This document shows positions 30,472 to 38,737 of a DNA stretch of 64,000 nt, in pieces. The stretch comes from Snuella sedimenti (GTDB lineage Bacteria; Bacteroidota; Bacteroidia; Flavobacteriales; Flavobacteriaceae). The first letter of the stretch is position 1, and each line of letters opens with the position of its first letter. The translations under genes and the position numbers were made by a program. The notes below the pieces were generated by a model, which was given only the letters and a program-made list of their open reading frames with translations, made no database searches and had not been told where the DNA came from. The stretch lies in contig NZ_JAELVQ010000003.1 of assembly GCF_016428595.1 (NCBI RefSeq), positions 124,001 through 188,000 of the forward strand, read 5' to 3'.

Positions 30472-32430
30472 ATGAAAAGATTCCTTACCTCACTACTACT
30501 TTTAATTAGTTTTGTTAGTTTCTCACAGATGATCCCAGAAGTGAAATGGAAGACCTCTGTAGAAAAACTGTCTGATACCGAATATAATTTAATAACAACA
30601 GCTGTTATACCACATGGGTTTCATTTATACTCTCAAACGGTGCCAGACGGTGGTCCAATACCAACCAGTTTTATTTATGATGACGCCAATGGAGCTTTTA
30701 AAATAATAGGAAACACAACAGAGGAAAAAGGGCATACTGTTAATGACCCTGTTTTTGAAATGGAAATCAAGTATTTCGAAAACAAAACCGTATTTAAGCA
30801 ACAGATAGAAGTTTTAGGAGATAAGAAAACTTTAGAGGCTTTTGTTGAATTTATGATTTGTGATGACGAGCGATGTTCGCCTCCAACAGAAATAGACTTG
30901 GTGTTCAATCTTGCAGGAGAAGGAAAAACGAGCGTAGGAGAGTCATCGGTTGGCACAGTGACCAAATCAACATCAGGAAAAGAATCCAAAAAAGGATTAT
31001 GGGCTATTTTCTTTATAGCATTTTTATCAGGGTTCGCAGCCTTATTAACACCCTGTGTATTCCCTATGATCCCTATGACGGTTAGTTTCTTTACTAAGCA
31101 GAGTAAAACCAAAGCAGCAGGTATTAAAAATGCCATTATTTATGGTATTTGTATCATTGTTATTTATGTATTGTTAGGGACGGCGGTAACAGCTATGTTT
31201 GGAGCGGATGCATTAAATGCATTAGCAACTAATGTATGGTTTAATATCATCTTCTTTTTACTGTTGGTAATTTTTGCAGTGTCCTTTTTAGGGGCTTTTG
31301 AAATTATGTTACCCAATTCTTGGGCTAACAAAGTAGATTCTCAAGCCGATAGAGGTGGCCTAATAGGTATTTTCTTTATGGCGTTGGCTTTGGCAATAGT
31401 ATCTTTCTCTTGTACGGGGCCTATTGTTGGAACCTTGTTGGTAGAAGCAGCGTCCAAGGGAGGTTTAGCACCTATTATCGGTATGTTAGGCTTCTCGTTG
31501 GCGATTGCATTGCCTTTTGCCCTGTTTGCGGCCTTTCCTGGCTGGTTAAATTCGTTGCCAAAATCTGGAGGATGGCTAAATACGGTAAAAGTAGTTCTTG
31601 GGTTTTTAGAACTGGCTTTAGCATTTAAATTTTTATCGCAAGCCGATTTGGTGTTGCAAGCGCATATTTTGGAACGGGAGGTATTTATCGCGATATGGAT
31701 TGCTATTTTCGGAGCCTTGGCTTTTTACCTTTTCGGAAAAATACAACTACCGCACGATTCGCCATTAACACATATTTCTGTGGGGCGCTTGGGGCTTGGT
31801 CTTTTTGTTCTATCGTTCACCATTTATATGATTCCGGGACTTTGGGGAGCGCCTTTAAACTTAATTAGTGCGTTTCCTCCTCCATTAGAATATAGCGAGT
31901 CTCCTTATGGGGTTGGATATTCTAAAGTAGCAAGTGGTTTGGTATCTGGAGATGCTCATGCCAATCTTCCTGATGGTGCACATTTATTGGCGCCGCATGA
32001 TATATTGGCGTTTAACGATTACGATAAAGGATTAGCTTATGCTAAGAAAGTTGGTAAACCGGTTATGATTGATTTTACAGGATGGGCATGTGTAAACTGT
32101 AGAAAAATGGAACAGAATGTATGGCCTAAGGATGGTATTTTAAATATTTTGAAGAACGATGTAGTTTTAATATCATTGTATGTAGACGATAAACGTAAAC
32201 TTCAAGATGACGAAGTTGTGGAGTCTCAATTAAAACCTGGTAAAAAACTAAAATATATTGGTCAGAAATGGAGCGAATTGCAAACGATTCGGTATAAGGC
32301 CAATTCACAGCCATTTTATGTACTTATGGATCATGAAGAAAATAATTTGATCGATCCAGTAGCCTATACCCCAAACGCAGATGATTATCTTGCTTGGTTA
32401 AAAAAGGGTATAAGCAATTTTAACAAATAA
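30472..32430 (+). CDS. DsbD-like thiol:disulfide interchange transmembrane protein
   Basis: The ATG at 30472 ([19 protein letters not shown], a signal peptide) is preferred over a TTG ten codons upstream. The 652-residue product has a periplasmic N-domain with ICDDERC, and then about eight membrane helices with the paired cysteines in [11 protein letters not shown] and [11 protein letters not shown]-terminal thioredoxin domain follows with redox motif CVNC at about C540/C543 ([13 protein letters not shown]). DsbD carries electrons from cytoplasmic thioredoxin to periplasmic thiol proteins. This matches TrxB and several TlpA-like proteins in the same region. The next gene follows after 43 bases. 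Confidence 0.92.
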
Positions 32431-32473: not shown

Positions 32474-33487
32474 ATGAAAAAAACACTGTATGTTGCTGCA
32501 ATAGCTTTGGCCTTTGTAGCTTGTAAAGAGCAAGAACCTAAAGATTATGTAACCTTATCCGGAACCATAACCGATAAAAACTCGGATTCATTAGTGGTAC
32601 GTTCCAGAACATACCAAAAGAAAATAGATATCGGTGCCGATGGGACTTTTTCAGATACGCTAAAAGTAGAAAAAGGAACTTACAACTTATTTGATGGTAA
32701 GGAATCTACAACCATATTTTTAGAAAATGGATTTGATATTAAGCTAACACTGGATACCAAGCAATTTGATGAAACGATCACTTATTCCGGTATTGGGGAA
32801 GACGTTAATAATTACTTAGCTAAAAAGGCTCTATTGCAAGAAAAAGTGCTTTATAATTTTGATTTGTACGATTTAGAAAAATCCGATTTTGAAAAAGAGA
32901 CGAATACCGTTTTTGAATCGATGACAGCTTTGTTAGAATCTACAAAAAACTTAGACTCAACGTTTGTAGCAGGTCAAAGCAAACAAATTGATGGTCTTAA
33001 GGAATATGTGGTTACAAATTATGAAGACAAGCAGTATACAAAAACGGTATTAGCAAAGGGGAAGCCGTCTCCTAAATTCTCCAATTATGAAAATAATGCA
33101 GGAGGTACTACGTCCATTGATGATTTAAAAGGCAAGTATCTTTATGTTGATGTTTGGGCAACGTGGTGTGGTCCATGTAAAAGGGAAATCCCATTTTTAA
33201 AAGAAGTAGAGAAAAAATACCATGGTAAGAATATTGAGTTTGTTAGTATCTCTATAGACAAGCAAGCCGATAAGGAAAAATGGAAAACAATGATTGCCGA
33301 GAAAGAACTTGGAGGCACCCAATTATTAGCAGATAGTGATTGGAGATCTAAGTTCGTACAAGATTATAAAATAAAGGGAATTCCTCGATTTATTTTAATT
33401 GCTCCCGACGGAAACATTGTGTCTGCTGATGCACCAAGACCTTCTGATAAGCGGCTAATAGACCTGTTTGCAGAACTAAAGATATAA
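32474..33487 (+). CDS. TlpA-like thioredoxin lipoprotein
   Basis: A 337-residue lipoprotein (signal MKKTLYVAAIALAFVAC). An N-terminal DUF4369-like domain (YVTLSGTITDKNSDSLVVRS) is followed by a C-terminal TlpA domain starting at SPKFSNYENNAGGTTSIDDL, with WCGPC at C232/C235 and cis-Pro in IKGIPRF. It is probably reduced by the DsbD protein encoded upstream and could keep periplasmic or cytochrome c thiols reduced. It is ended by a strong hairpin. Confidence 0.85.
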   Translation: MKKTLYVAAIALAFVACKEQEPKDYVTLSGTITDKNSDSLVVRSRTYQKKIDIGADGTFSDTLKVEKGTYNLFDGKESTTIFLENGFDIKLTLDTKQFDETITYSGIGEDVNNYLAKKALLQEKVLYNFDLYDLEKSDFEKETNTVFESMTALLESTKNLDSTFVAGQSKQIDGLKEYVVTNYEDKQYTKTVLAKGKPSPKFSNYENNAGGTTSIDDLKGKYLYVDVWATWCGPCKREIPFLKEVEKKYHGKNIEFVSISIDKQADKEKWKTMIAEKELGGTQLLADSDWRSKFVQDYKIKGIPRFILIAPDGNIVSADAPRPSDKRLIDLFAELKI

Positions 33488-33586: not shown

Positions 33587-35101
33587 ATGAATGCTATCAA
33601 TACCCTTAAAAAAGTTTTAAAAAAGACTAACAGATCAAATTTGGAAGCTTATTTTAAACCATTTAGAGATAACATTGTTGGAATTGACCAAGAGTTTACT
33701 TCTCCTTATGGTAAACAAAAAATAATATATTCCGATTGGACGGCTAGTGGGAGACTTTATAAACAAATAGAAGATAAGCTACATCACGAGATAGGGCCTT
33801 ATGTAGCAAATACCCATACCGAAACCTCTATTACTGGGTCGGCTATGACCTTGGCGTATCACAACGCCAGAAATATCATTAAAGAGCACGTTAACGCCTC
33901 TAAGGACGACGTATTGATTACTGTTGGAACAGGTATGACAGGGGCCATTAATAAATTTCAGCGTATTTTGGGTTTAAAGGTGTCCGAAAACCTCAAAGAC
34001 CATACACAAGTACCTGAAGTATTACGCCCTATTGTATTTATTTCACATATGGAACACCATTCTAATCAAACCTCATGGTTAGAGACCATTGCTAGGGTAG
34101 AAGTGATTCCATGTGATAGAGAAGGTCTTATTTGTTTAAACAGTTTTGAAACGTTGTTACGAAAATATGCCGATTGTCCAATTAAAATAGCTTCGGTAAC
34201 AGCCTGTTCTAATGTTACTGGAATTAAAACCGATTACCATAAAATTGCTGGCTTGGTACACCAATATAATGGTTTATGCTTTGTCGATTTTGCCTGTTCG
34301 GCTCCTTATGTAGCTATTAACATGCATCCCGACAATGATGAGGAATATTTGGATGCTATTACGTTTTCACCACATAAGTTCTTAGGTGGACCAGGAGCAT
34401 CGGGCGTGCTTATCTTCAATAAAAAACTGTATAAGAACATGGTGCCCGATAACCCGGGAGGAGGTACCGTGTCCTATACCAATCCATGGGGAGACCATGA
34501 TTATATCGATGATATAGAAACTCGTGAAGACGGTGGTACCCCAGGATTTTTACAGGCTATTCGTATCGCATTGGCCATTCGTTTAAAAGAACAAATGGGG
34601 GTAAAGCAAATATTAGATCGTGAGCACGAATTGAACAAGCGTATATTTAAAGCACTTTCTAAGATTAAGAACTTGCATATTCTTGCAGAAAAACATACCG
34701 ATCGCTTAGGTGTGTTTTCATTCTATATTGACGATGCACATTATAATTTGGTCGTTAAATTGCTAAATGATCGCTTTGGGGTACAAACCAGGGGAGGATG
34801 TTCATGTGCGGGTACTTATGGACACTTTTTGCTTAATGTTGATTTGCCAAAATCTAAAGCTATTGAGCAAAAAATTTTAGAGGGATGCCTCATTGAAAGA
34901 CCGGGCTGGATACGTATGTCAATTCACCCAACAATGACCAATGATGAAATTGATTTTATATGTGATGCCATAAAACAAGTTGCCAAGAATATTAAAGTAT
35001 GGGGAATGGATTACGAGTATCATGCATCTAAAAATGAATTTATTCATAAAGGAAATAAAGTTGTAGAAAAAGAGATTACTAAAACGTGGTTTAACTTATA
35101 A
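33587..35101 (+). CDS. Class V aminotransferase-fold PLP enzyme (cysteine desulfurase-like)
   Basis: A 504-residue PLP enzyme. Motifs are YSDWTASGRL near the start, the histidine-rich MEHHSNQTSWLE, the PLP-binding aspartate FVDFACSAPYVA, the Schiff-base lysine in FSPHKFLGGPGASG, and a cysteine-bearing loop TRGGCSCAGTYGH like that of desulfurases. It is longer than SufS/IscS (about 400 residues), with extra N- and C-terminal sequence, so it may act on a different substrate. It lies 12 bases before trxB, which suggests a sulfur or thiol role. This is inferred from context. Confidence 0.82.
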   Translation: MNAINTLKKVLKKTNRSNLEAYFKPFRDNIVGIDQEFTSPYGKQKIIYSDWTASGRLYKQIEDKLHHEIGPYVANTHTETSITGSAMTLAYHNARNIIKEHVNASKDDVLITVGTGMTGAINKFQRILGLKVSENLKDHTQVPEVLRPIVFISHMEHHSNQTSWLETIARVEVIPCDREGLICLNSFETLLRKYADCPIKIASVTACSNVTGIKTDYHKIAGLVHQYNGLCFVDFACSAPYVAINMHPDNDEEYLDAITFSPHKFLGGPGASGVLIFNKKLYKNMVPDNPGGGTVSYTNPWGDHDYIDDIETREDGGTPGFLQAIRIALAIRLKEQMGVKQILDREHELNKRIFKALSKIKNLHILAEKHTDRLGVFSFYIDDAHYNLVVKLLNDRFGVQTRGGCSCAGTYGHFLLNVDLPKSKAIEQKILEGCLIERPGWIRMSIHPTMTNDEIDFICDAIKQVAKNIKVWGMDYEYHASKNEFIHKGNKVVEKEITKTWFNL

Positions 35102-35113
35102 TTTGAAACGATT

Positions 35114-36076
35114 ATGTCAGAAACAATAGAACATGTAAAATGTTTGATCATAGGGTCCGGTCCAGCGGGTTATACGGCAGCAATCTATGCGGCGCGCGCT
35201 AACATGGCACCGGTATTGTACCAAGGGACGCAACCGGGTGGACAGTTAACAACTACTAATGAAGTTGAAAATTTCCCAGGATATCCAGATGGAGTTACAG
35301 GGCCAGAAATGATGATGCAACTACAAGCTCAAGCACAACGTTTTGAAACTGATGTGCGCGATGGTTGGGTTACCAAGGTGGACTTTTCGGGGCCCGTGCA
35401 TAAGGTGTGGGTAAACGGCACCAAGGAGGTCCACTGCGATACGGTGATCATCTCTACGGGTGCAACGGCGAAGTACCTAGGCTTGGAGTCCGAACAAAAG
35501 TATTTGAAGTTGGGCGGCGGTGTGTCGGCCTGTGCCGTTTGTGACGGTTTTTTCTATCGCAACCAGGAAGTCGTGATCGTAGGGGCAGGTGACTCGGCCT
35601 GTGAGGAGGCCCATTACCTATCCAAGCTCTGTAAAAAAGTGACCATGTTGGTACGTCGTGATGAGTTTAGGGCGTCCAAGATCATGGAAGCCAGGGTAAG
35701 GAATACCGAGAACATCGAGATCCTTTTCAATACCAATACCGATGAAGTGCTTGGGGACGGCCAAGTGGTAACCGGTGTTCGCACAAAGAACAACATAACG
35801 GGGGCGCTTACGGAGATTCCGGCCACCGGCTTTTTTGTGGCAATAGGCCACAAGCCCAACACCGATATCTTTAAGGATTACCTGGACTTGGACGAGACCG
35901 GGTACATCATTAACGTACCTGGGACATCAAGGACCAACGTAGAGGGCGTGTTTGTCTCGGGCGACGCGGCCGACCACGTGTACCGTCAGGCGGTTACGGC
36001 TGCAGGTACCGGTTGTATGGCGGCATTGGACGCGGAACGGTATTTGGCAGCTAAGGAAGCTGTTGTGCACGCTTAA
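35114..36076 (+). CDS. trxB: Thioredoxin reductase, with a GC-rich mosaic block
   Basis: A 320-residue flavoprotein that reduces thioredoxin with NADPH. Motifs are the FAD loop GSGPAGYTAAIYAARA, the redox pair C140/C143 (SACAVCDGFF), the NADPH loop GAGDSACEEA and the FAD-binding VSGDAADH. Length and order are normal and the frame is intact. The odd point is composition: from about 35350 to 36045, lines count at 52-68% GC by eye, against about 45% in the first part and below 40% in neighbouring genes. This suggests replacement by homologous recombination from a GC-richer relative. A perfect terminator follows. Confidence 0.95.
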   Translation: MSETIEHVKCLIIGSGPAGYTAAIYAARANMAPVLYQGTQPGGQLTTTNEVENFPGYPDGVTGPEMMMQLQAQAQRFETDVRDGWVTKVDFSGPVHKVWVNGTKEVHCDTVIISTGATAKYLGLESEQKYLKLGGGVSACAVCDGFFYRNQEVVIVGAGDSACEEAHYLSKLCKKVTMLVRRDEFRASKIMEARVRNTENIEILFNTNTDEVLGDGQVVTGVRTKNNITGALTEIPATGFFVAIGHKPNTDIFKDYLDLDETGYIINVPGTSRTNVEGVFVSGDAADHVYRQAVTAAGTGCMAALDAERYLAAKEAVVHA

Positions 36077-37261: not shown

Positions 37262-38212
37262 TTAAAGAGTTAAATCTAACTGTTTCGCTCTGTTTTCTAT
37301 TAGTGCTATTAAAGTGCTTTTGTTTTCCTCACTTAAAAAGCTATAGGCGATTAATTCTTGCCACTGTTGCATACCTTTTTCTATACGATTCCATAGGTTT
37401 TCAATAGCTTTAGCAGGGATTTGTGCTTTGGTCATGGCATCGTTAAAATCTAGGCGTTTAATTTTACGCTTTTTTCCGTTAAGGTTTAGTGCTAATTCTT
37501 CTTGATCTTCCGGAATCAATAATTTAACCGCTACCATATCATAGGTTGGTGCCAATGCATAGTGTTTACTGTCTTTTGCTATGAGTGAAAAGTTTTTTAA
37601 ATGCATATCGTTATTTCCAATCAGGAAAGAAACAATAACTTGCTCATAAAACTTTACGGCATCCAGTAACGGGTTTTGCGCATAGGTTATGATGGTCTTT
37701 GCAATTTGCTCGTAAGATCCACGATATTTATGTTCTGTAAGACGCTCTGTGAATTGGCAAGCATCTTCCATTGGGTACTTTTCGTTATTTGCAGTACGAT
37801 CTATACGCTTGGTTAAATAGGCTAAAGCGCCATCTTTTAATGGGATTAATAAAAAGGGTACTGTTGCTATACCGCAAGCTTGTGCCAATAACATGCATAG
37901 TGCCTCAATTTCTGGCATTTGCGGATACATATGAAATGGTGGTTTTAAAATATACCTGCCATTCAATGCACCTACAATGGTTAACCTATTTTGAGTATTT
38001 TCTTGTGTGAAACCTAATGATAATTTTGGTTGCACACCGGTAACAATGATGCGTTGTGCTACGTTTTCTTTTGCCAACGCTTCGATTTGAGACATCTCAT
38101 ACTCTAATTTTAGTACAGGCGTATCTTCTTGCCAAAATGCTGTTAGGCAGTTTTGATGGTAGTTTATGCCACCATCTTCTAGTTTTTTATGACATGCTAA
38201 ACAATAGTTCAT
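37262..38212 (-). CDS. hipT: HipT-type serine/threonine kinase toxin
   Basis: A 316-residue HipA-like kinase without the HipA N-terminal subdomain, which is a separate gene upstream. The N-terminus carries a zinc-ribbon-like set (C4, C7, H19, C22). The glycine-rich loop is GVQPKLSLG (residues 59-67). The catalytic motif is NNDMHLKN with D202 and K206, and the metal-binding Asp is D225 in PTYDMV. In E. coli HipT two loop serines are autophosphorylated. The residues just before GVQPK here are V57 and T58 rather than Ser-Ile-Ser. It overlaps hipS by four bases. The E. coli toxin phosphorylates TrpS; the target here is unknown. Confidence 0.85.
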   Translation of the reverse strand: MNYCLACHKKLEDGGINYHQNCLTAFWQEDTPVLKLEYEMSQIEALAKENVAQRIIVTGVQPKLSLGFTQENTQNRLTIVGALNGRYILKPPFHMYPQMPEIEALCMLLAQACGIATVPFLLIPLKDGALAYLTKRIDRTANNEKYPMEDACQFTERLTEHKYRGSYEQIAKTIITYAQNPLLDAVKFYEQVIVSFLIGNNDMHLKNFSLIAKDSKHYALAPTYDMVAVKLLIPEDQEELALNLNGKKRKIKRLDFNDAMTKAQIPAKAIENLWNRIEKGMQQWQELIAYSFLSEENKSTLIALIENRAKQLDLTL

Positions 38213-38526
38213 ACCTTCTCTATAATGCTAATATTGCCAATACAATCTCTACATGTAGTTAATAATATGCCCATGCGGTCTCTTGGGTTAATTTTCCAAT
38301 TTTTATGAGCTATGTCTAATAACCAACCTTCCGGAATTAAACCATCGAAGAAAGGGAATAGGTATTCGGCACTAAACGCTTCTTCTTGTAATGGTAACGT
38401 CAAACTCACTGCTAATGTACTTTCATTTTCTAGGTATGCTTTGTCATACTTGAAATGATAGCCATTATCGTCCTCGGTTAATATACCAGCTAACGTTTTA
38501 TTTACCCAGATTTCTCCTTGTCTCAT
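38209..38526 (-). CDS. hipS: HipS, HipA N-terminal-domain-like antitoxin
   Basis: A 105-residue protein equal to the N-terminal subdomain of HipA, with the typical FPFFDGLIPEGWLLDIA segment and the C-terminal CIGNISII. In the hipBST systems described from E. coli, this small protein, not HipB, neutralises the kinase. The gene order hipB-hipS-hipT is the same here. It overlaps hipB by 29 bases and hipT by four, so all three should be translated from one message. Confidence 0.85.
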   Translation of the reverse strand: MRQGEIWVNKTLAGILTEDDNGYHFKYDKAYLENESTLAVSLTLPLQEEAFSAEYLFPFFDGLIPEGWLLDIAHKNWKINPRDRMGILLTTCRDCIGNISIIEKV

Positions 38527-38737
38527 CGCTTATAGGTGTTGGTGTTAGTGTATGTCCAAAAAATAATAATACCTGATTTACTTTATCGGTCATTACATTT
38601 GGTTTTCCCTGTTCGAGTTCGCGTACAAAACGCAATCCTACACCTGTGAAGTCTGATAACTCTACTTGTGTTAGATTTGCTTTTTTGCGTCTATCCCTTA
38701 CAAATTGAGCTATTGTATTTTTCCTATCCCATTCCAT
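38498..38737 (-). CDS. hipB: HipB-like XRE-family DNA-binding protein
   Basis: A 79-residue helix-turn-helix protein (IAQFVRDRRKKANLTQVELS, then GLRFVRELEQGKPN). It is the first gene of the hip operon and should repress it by binding the three repeated operators just upstream (38743-38840). The start codon lies only five bases from the nearest operator. The tail TPTPISDETRRNLGK overlaps the hipS start. Length is typical of HipB. Confidence 0.87.
   Translation of the reverse strand: MEWDRKNTIAQFVRDRRKKANLTQVELSDFTGVGLRFVRELEQGKPNVMTDKVNQVLLFFGHTLTPTPISDETRRNLGK

Follow-up and report, generated by a model that had tools for sequence, protein, structure and literature searches.

Why does a gene for a core redox enzyme stand out from its neighbours by high GC, and which of its parts is the native one? 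The question is raised by trxB, a thioredoxin reductase gene of Snuella sedimenti (genome G000), lying in the window, the whole stretch of 64,000 nucleotides analysed here. An earlier note on this DNA had taken the sharp GC-rich block at 35350–36045 for what was probably a piece of a GC-richer flavobacterium that had replaced residues ~79–310 within an otherwise native gene. Our analysis partly supports that reading: the gene is a true recombinant, with a different anatomy.

By its sequence, the window gene is a bacterial thioredoxin reductase (TrxB), predicted to reduce thioredoxin with NADPH. The PF07992 domain (Pyr_redox_2, 2.1e-45) spans residues 9–300, and the protein is 91% identical, among the matches listed, to relatives of annotated type in named flavobacteria. 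A second trxB is present in the same genome on contig C39 (L035 8536–9495; GC3 0.63), with 94% DNA and 97% protein identity to the window copy. The features are as follows; the per-segment nucleotide identities to C39 (96% and 97%) are unreliable for rows of changed length, some rows having been aligned without gaps.

30472..32430, + strand: DsbD-like gene (DsbD_TM, 3.5e-25), same row as trxB, order as in G333 and G138
32474..33487, + strand: thioredoxin-like protein gene (Thioredoxin_8, 5e-19), same row as trxB, order as in G333 and G138
33587..35101, + strand: SufS-like aminotransferase class V gene (Aminotran_5, 2.9e-47), 12 bp 5′ of trxB, marking locus 2
35114..36076, + strand: mosaic trxB, thioredoxin reductase of 320 aa; open frame; Pyr_redox_2, 2.1e-45; second genome copy at 97% aa
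35114..35251, + strand: 5′ part of trxB, codons 1–46, C39-like; 96% nt to C39; 50.0% GC; GC3 0.43; first 56 bases the same in both copies
35252..35353, + strand: AT-rich, apparently native-like tract, codons 47–80; 33 of 59 differences from C39 in bases 141–240; GC3 0.15; 92% nt to Algibacter L049
35354..36073, + strand: GC-rich part of trxB, codons 81–320, C39-like; 97% nt to C39; 54.3% GC

Composition and mosaic structure of the window gene

The compositional contrast is robust to recounting. The 60-base lines at 35401, 35521 and 35941, estimated by eye at 55%, 52% and 68% GC in the earlier note, contain 55.0, 51.7 and 68.3%; the frame is intact, as the note had said; and the block at 35350–36045 reaches 54.0% GC by direct count. 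In a scan with 2638 sliding windows of 696 bp (24-bp steps), none clear of trxB matches this value, and the 99.9th percentile outside trxB is 44.7% GC. The GC3 of trxB is 0.57 vs 0.22–0.37 in the 41 other non-overlapping ATG open reading frames of at least 150 aa in the window. With 0.57 and 0.63 in its two copies against at most 0.37 in the other window genes, the composition of trxB is foreign to the genome. Relative to the trxB GC3 expected from flank GC, by a fit to 79 rows of other genomes, the excess was +5.1 residual SD for the window copy, +6.3 for the C39 copy and +4.9 for the trxB of another genome, G241. Expression-driven codon use was rejected as the cause, the markers rpoB (GC3 0.25) and recA (0.32) of S. 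sedimenti being AT-rich at third positions.

The low GC ascribed by the earlier note to the first 230 bases belongs only to 35252–35353 (39.2%; GC3 0.15); the 230 bases together have 46.1%, and 35114–35251 has 50.0%, although its first 60 bases have 40%. The step into the block does lie where it was placed, at a right breakpoint near 35353. Over codons 1–46, 47–80, 81–200 and 201–end, GC3 is 0.43, 0.15, 0.68 and 0.63 in the window copy and 0.52, 0.74, 0.67 and 0.60 in the C39 copy.

Alignment of the two copies reveals sharp tracts of differing divergence. Of their 59 differences, 33 are packed into gene bases 141–240 (window 35254–35353), a clustering not equalled in any of 20,000 permutations (at most 21 per 100-bp stretch in the shuffles), with breakpoints at 35239–35254 on the left and 35353–35392 on the right. 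At the sites that distinguish C39 from Algibacter L049, the window copy sides with L049 in 26 of 39 cases within bases 127–278 and in 6 of 232 elsewhere. Triplet tests with L049 and eight comparators behaving alike gave 0/2000 permutations each; because G105, discussed below, is among the nine, they demonstrate a tract that is not C39-like and not the clade from which it came. Since the window copy is ~97% identical to C39 outside these 100 bp, the GC-rich sequence is the background of the gene and the ~100-bp AT-rich tract the exception. Intragenic recombination, as proposed, is thus borne out by both scan and triplets, and the proposed extent is not: codons 1–46 as well as 81–320 are GC-rich, and only codons ~47–80 look native. 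The C39 copy is the likely immediate template of the GC-rich parts. Outside the tract the two copies differ at 26 of 857 sites; any conversion was therefore not recent, or involved more than one event.

Two trxB loci across genomes

A BLAST comparison of the 64-kb window with the 11.9-kb C39 returned a single match, the trxB coding sequence, whose homology begins 2 bp ahead of the start codon and breaks off 4 bp short of the stop codon. High GC ends where this homology ends. Locus 1, carried by C39 in S. sedimenti, consists of a presumably lipocalin-like gene, trxB and tRNA-Pro; a Pfam search of the first gene gave no match. This gene adjoins trxB in many relatives, and tRNA-Pro(GGG) lies 3′ of trxB in both C39 and Tamlana L047. 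Locus 2, with the order DsbD-like, thioredoxin-like, SufS-like and trxB, is found in the window and in G333 and G138; SufS also adjoins trxB in G006, G148 and Flavobacterium hibernum L072. G400 has the closest SufS (89%), yet without trxB 3′ of it. Given this single match and the presence of both loci in other genomes, the loci are long-standing and separate, with homology confined to the trxB coding sequence.

Further observations concern the surroundings of these loci. In L043 and L046, trxB occupies a gene place to which we assign the names DUF4097 and PspC; a trxB at this place in S. sedimenti was rejected, its PspC-like gene lying on contig C45, where no trxB match was reported. A stretch similar by eye precedes trxB in C39 (L035 8466–8535) and in L129, L130, L139, L142 and L140; before trxB of the locus-1 type it reads TTGATAACTT or TTAATAACTT, GTAAG, then TACTTTTG or TACATTTG, and judged from sequence it is probably a promoter with a regulator site. 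The window gene, 12 bp 3′ of SufS, lacks this stretch. The end of C39 (L035 9622–11917) carries tRNA-Pro(GGG) and then a tyrosine recombinase (Phage_integrase), resembling the edge of an integrated element, with a neighbouring frame that we take to be ParB-like. In the window, three adjoining minus-strand frames of 316, 105 and 79 aa at 37262–38737 presumably form, by resemblance, a HipBST-like toxin–antitoxin system of a split HipA kinase and a HipB-type regulator.

Exchange between the loci can be read in G333 and G138, two genomes of a single genus with near-identical trxB copies at both loci. The paralogues differ at 48 sites in G333 and 31 in G138, whereas the same-locus orthologues differ between the two genomes at 108 and 122 sites, and the pairs therefore represent concerted evolution. 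In G333, bases 361–720 form a 360-bp identical tract, and 41 of the 48 sites fall before it. The GC3 of these genes is an ordinary 0.29–0.33; conversion alone therefore does not make trxB GC-rich. In G006, with 174 differences between its two copies, recent conversion is not visible.

Kinship of the tract and of the GC-rich sequence

As the earlier note had anticipated, the parts of the gene differ in their closest relatives. The tract is 92% identical in nucleotides to Algibacter L049, and its protein is identical to the locus-2 TrxB of G006, a value subject to the same alignment limit as the per-segment identities above. Codons 47–80 of the window copy lie nearer to 23 Algibacter-like rows than to a second set of 12 (p 1e-4 for aa, 0.005 for nt); as the rows are related rather than independent, both p-values are too small. 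Of the 23, the rpoB tree supplied 20 and the TrxB tree three named rows. Neither set is preferred by the C39 copy or by the other window segments. On these comparisons, codons 47–80 appear native-like and closest to Algibacter-like flavobacteria.

The remainder of the gene points elsewhere. The full-length TrxB tree took in the TrxB rows with 80% identity or more and four outgroup rows, together 81 of the 138 distinct genes. In it both S. sedimenti copies group with G105, a distant flavobacterium (support 99/92), and they do so without codons 47–80 (96/93); the tree of the GC-rich part comprised 48 of the 81 rows. The two copies are each other's nearest in the tree. In the rpoB tree the genome is instead placed with G182 and G361 (96/90), inside an 18-genome clade (99/96), and with rpoB and recA together it stays in this Algibacter-like clade (96/96) without a resolved sister; the rpoB and recA trees covered 30 genomes. 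These markers reject a grouping of S. sedimenti with G105 (p-AU 0.028, bootstrap not fully settled), and TrxB held with G182/G361 is rejected without codons 47–80 (p-AU 0.022). Forcing TrxB into the 23-row Algibacter-like set was not rejected (p-AU 0.078), and for this reason a foreign origin of the GC-rich trxB is likely rather than proven. The GC-richer flavobacterial source proposed earlier stays probable to that extent, as far as foreign kinship goes; no donor was found in the searches below.

Among 397 family genomes (at most two candidates scored per genome) no foreign match exceeded 77% nt identity, and none exceeded 76% among 295 relatives of G105 (cut-off 1e-170), a set that overlaps the first in part. 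The best hit of a scan of one genome per species in GTDB (84,980 species) had 91% aa identity among the matches listed, and the relative at 91% has a GC3 of 0.20. Donors on mobile elements were rejected: plasmids gave 761 matching records with a best of 66.6% aa, phages 59 records (best-ranked 58.5%, one further record in the 60–80% band) and viral contigs 5 loci with a best of 73%.

G241 complicates the picture. Its trxB (L155 7656–8636) is a single copy at locus 1 with GC3 0.56 among neighbours of 0.34–0.43, and its TrxB groups with that of its genus-mate G400 (98/75). Being unpaired, its GC-rich gene cannot be explained by present conversion; having no clear displacement, it does not show by GC-richness a transfer from afar. 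G241 thus speaks against both simple stories. A GC-rich origin common to G241 and S. sedimenti was rejected, identity to C39 being at most 82% in any 60-bp bin. On contig C14 of G241 (L226 3600–18124), genes of GC3 0.44–0.58 stand beside genes of ~0.3 in a run that surrounds SufS-like and DsbD-like genes and resembles a GC-rich island.

Origin of the mosaic

We favour, with moderate confidence, an account in which a GC-rich trxB of probably foreign origin took the place of the native gene at one locus. Interlocus gene conversion would then have brought it to the other, with a remnant of the native gene left behind. The genome would have retained trxB at two old loci, locus 1 on C39 and locus 2 in the window. 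The GC-rich trxB of an unsampled flavobacterium would have replaced the native coding sequence at one of them by homologous recombination, and recombination between the loci, homologous across the coding sequence only, would then have carried it to the other. Codons 47–80, ~100 bp, may be what patchy conversion of the window copy spared of the older, AT-rich gene. Interlocus conversion, whose pattern G333 and G138 display, is what we infer for S. sedimenti, together with the direction and order of events and the donor. The absence of a donor above 77% nt in the searches, the p-AU of 0.078 and the GC-rich G241 gene (GC3 0.56), which nevertheless groups with a genus-mate, count against this account, as do the 26 differences that already separate the GC-rich copies outside the tract. 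A replacement starting exactly at the start codon is likewise unusual for random breakpoints and counts against it. The tract may also have come in later from an Algibacter-like strain instead of being a remnant.

GC could also have risen in place, through repeated conversion of two copies with GC-biased repair, within the coding sequence only and from no foreign donor. The coincidence of high GC with the limits of interlocus homology speaks for such a rise, as do the donor searches among 397 family genomes and 295 G105 relatives and the indecisive foreign placement (p-AU 0.078). We nevertheless regard it as unlikely, given that G333 and G138 convert strongly at a GC3 of only 0.29–0.33, that G241 is GC-rich with a single copy and that the C39 copy groups with G105. 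A duplication of a GC-rich trxB into locus 2, followed by import of ~100 bp from an Algibacter-like strain, is similarly improbable: trxB stands at locus 2 in other genomes and is therefore no fresh insertion there, and the duplicated piece would have had to begin no more than 2 bp from the start codon and to finish 4 bp short of the stop codon. Such an import would fit the 92% identity of the tract to L049, which exceeds that of any other segment to any relative, and the lack of trxB behind the nearest SufS, in G400.

The single foreign piece of the earlier note, swapped in for residues ~79–310 of a native gene, is contradicted by the whole GC-rich gene on C39 and by codons 1–46, which also match C39 (96% nt, under the alignment limit given above). 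Despite the fitting right breakpoint at ~35353 and the probably foreign GC-rich part, we give it very little credence. An assembly error or contamination, with C39 or the mosaic not belonging to the organism, might be suspected in a genome of 57 contigs where C39 is only 11.9 kb long and ends in an integrase region. Estimated contamination is, however, 0.47%, the flanks of C39 have the same GC (0.35) as those of the window gene, its genes are arranged as at locus 1 of relatives, and the mosaic sits at 159 kb on a contig of 240 kb, all of which make an artefact highly improbable.

Mosaic genes, of which those for the penicillin-binding proteins of pneumococcus are the usual example, form when foreign DNA enters by homologous recombination. 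The window trxB resembles them in its intact frame, sharp breakpoints and parts of different kinship; unlike them, it was likely templated directly by another trxB of its own genome. GC-biased gene conversion raises GC where two copies can convert each other, and trxB is likewise raised in GC over the stretch convertible between copies; the converting pairs of G333 and G138, in contrast, are not GC-rich. In the literature collection searched, no paper mentions thioredoxin reductase together with flavobacteria and gene conversion. Duplicated bacterial genes, tuf for example, are known to evolve in concert through gene conversion (Wang and Chen 2018, PMC6053082). As far as the main text of that survey of concertedly evolving prokaryotic genes describes them, such systems share with trxB two copies at separate places, greater likeness within a genome than between species and homology confined to the gene; they differ in that trxB has, in addition, a GC-rich copy of probably foreign origin and a tract left unconverted. 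Neither trxB nor thioredoxin appears in that main text.

The case carries a caution for reading composition: a GC-rich block inside a gene may be its background and the AT-rich remainder the exception. The GC-rich outliers S. sedimenti and G241, set against the converting but ordinary G333 and G138, make GC-biased conversion vs transfer testable. More broadly, and as a tentative proposal that we hold somewhat short of even, trxB of Flavobacteriaceae may occupy two loci that repeatedly evolve in concert, so that a foreign allele entering at one is copied to the other and a core redox enzyme is replaced genome-wide, S. sedimenti being caught with ~100 bp of the old gene. If so, conversion between the two trxB loci could be read directly from sequence in three genomes, and the case would show by what route both genomic copies of such an enzyme can take on a foreign allele.
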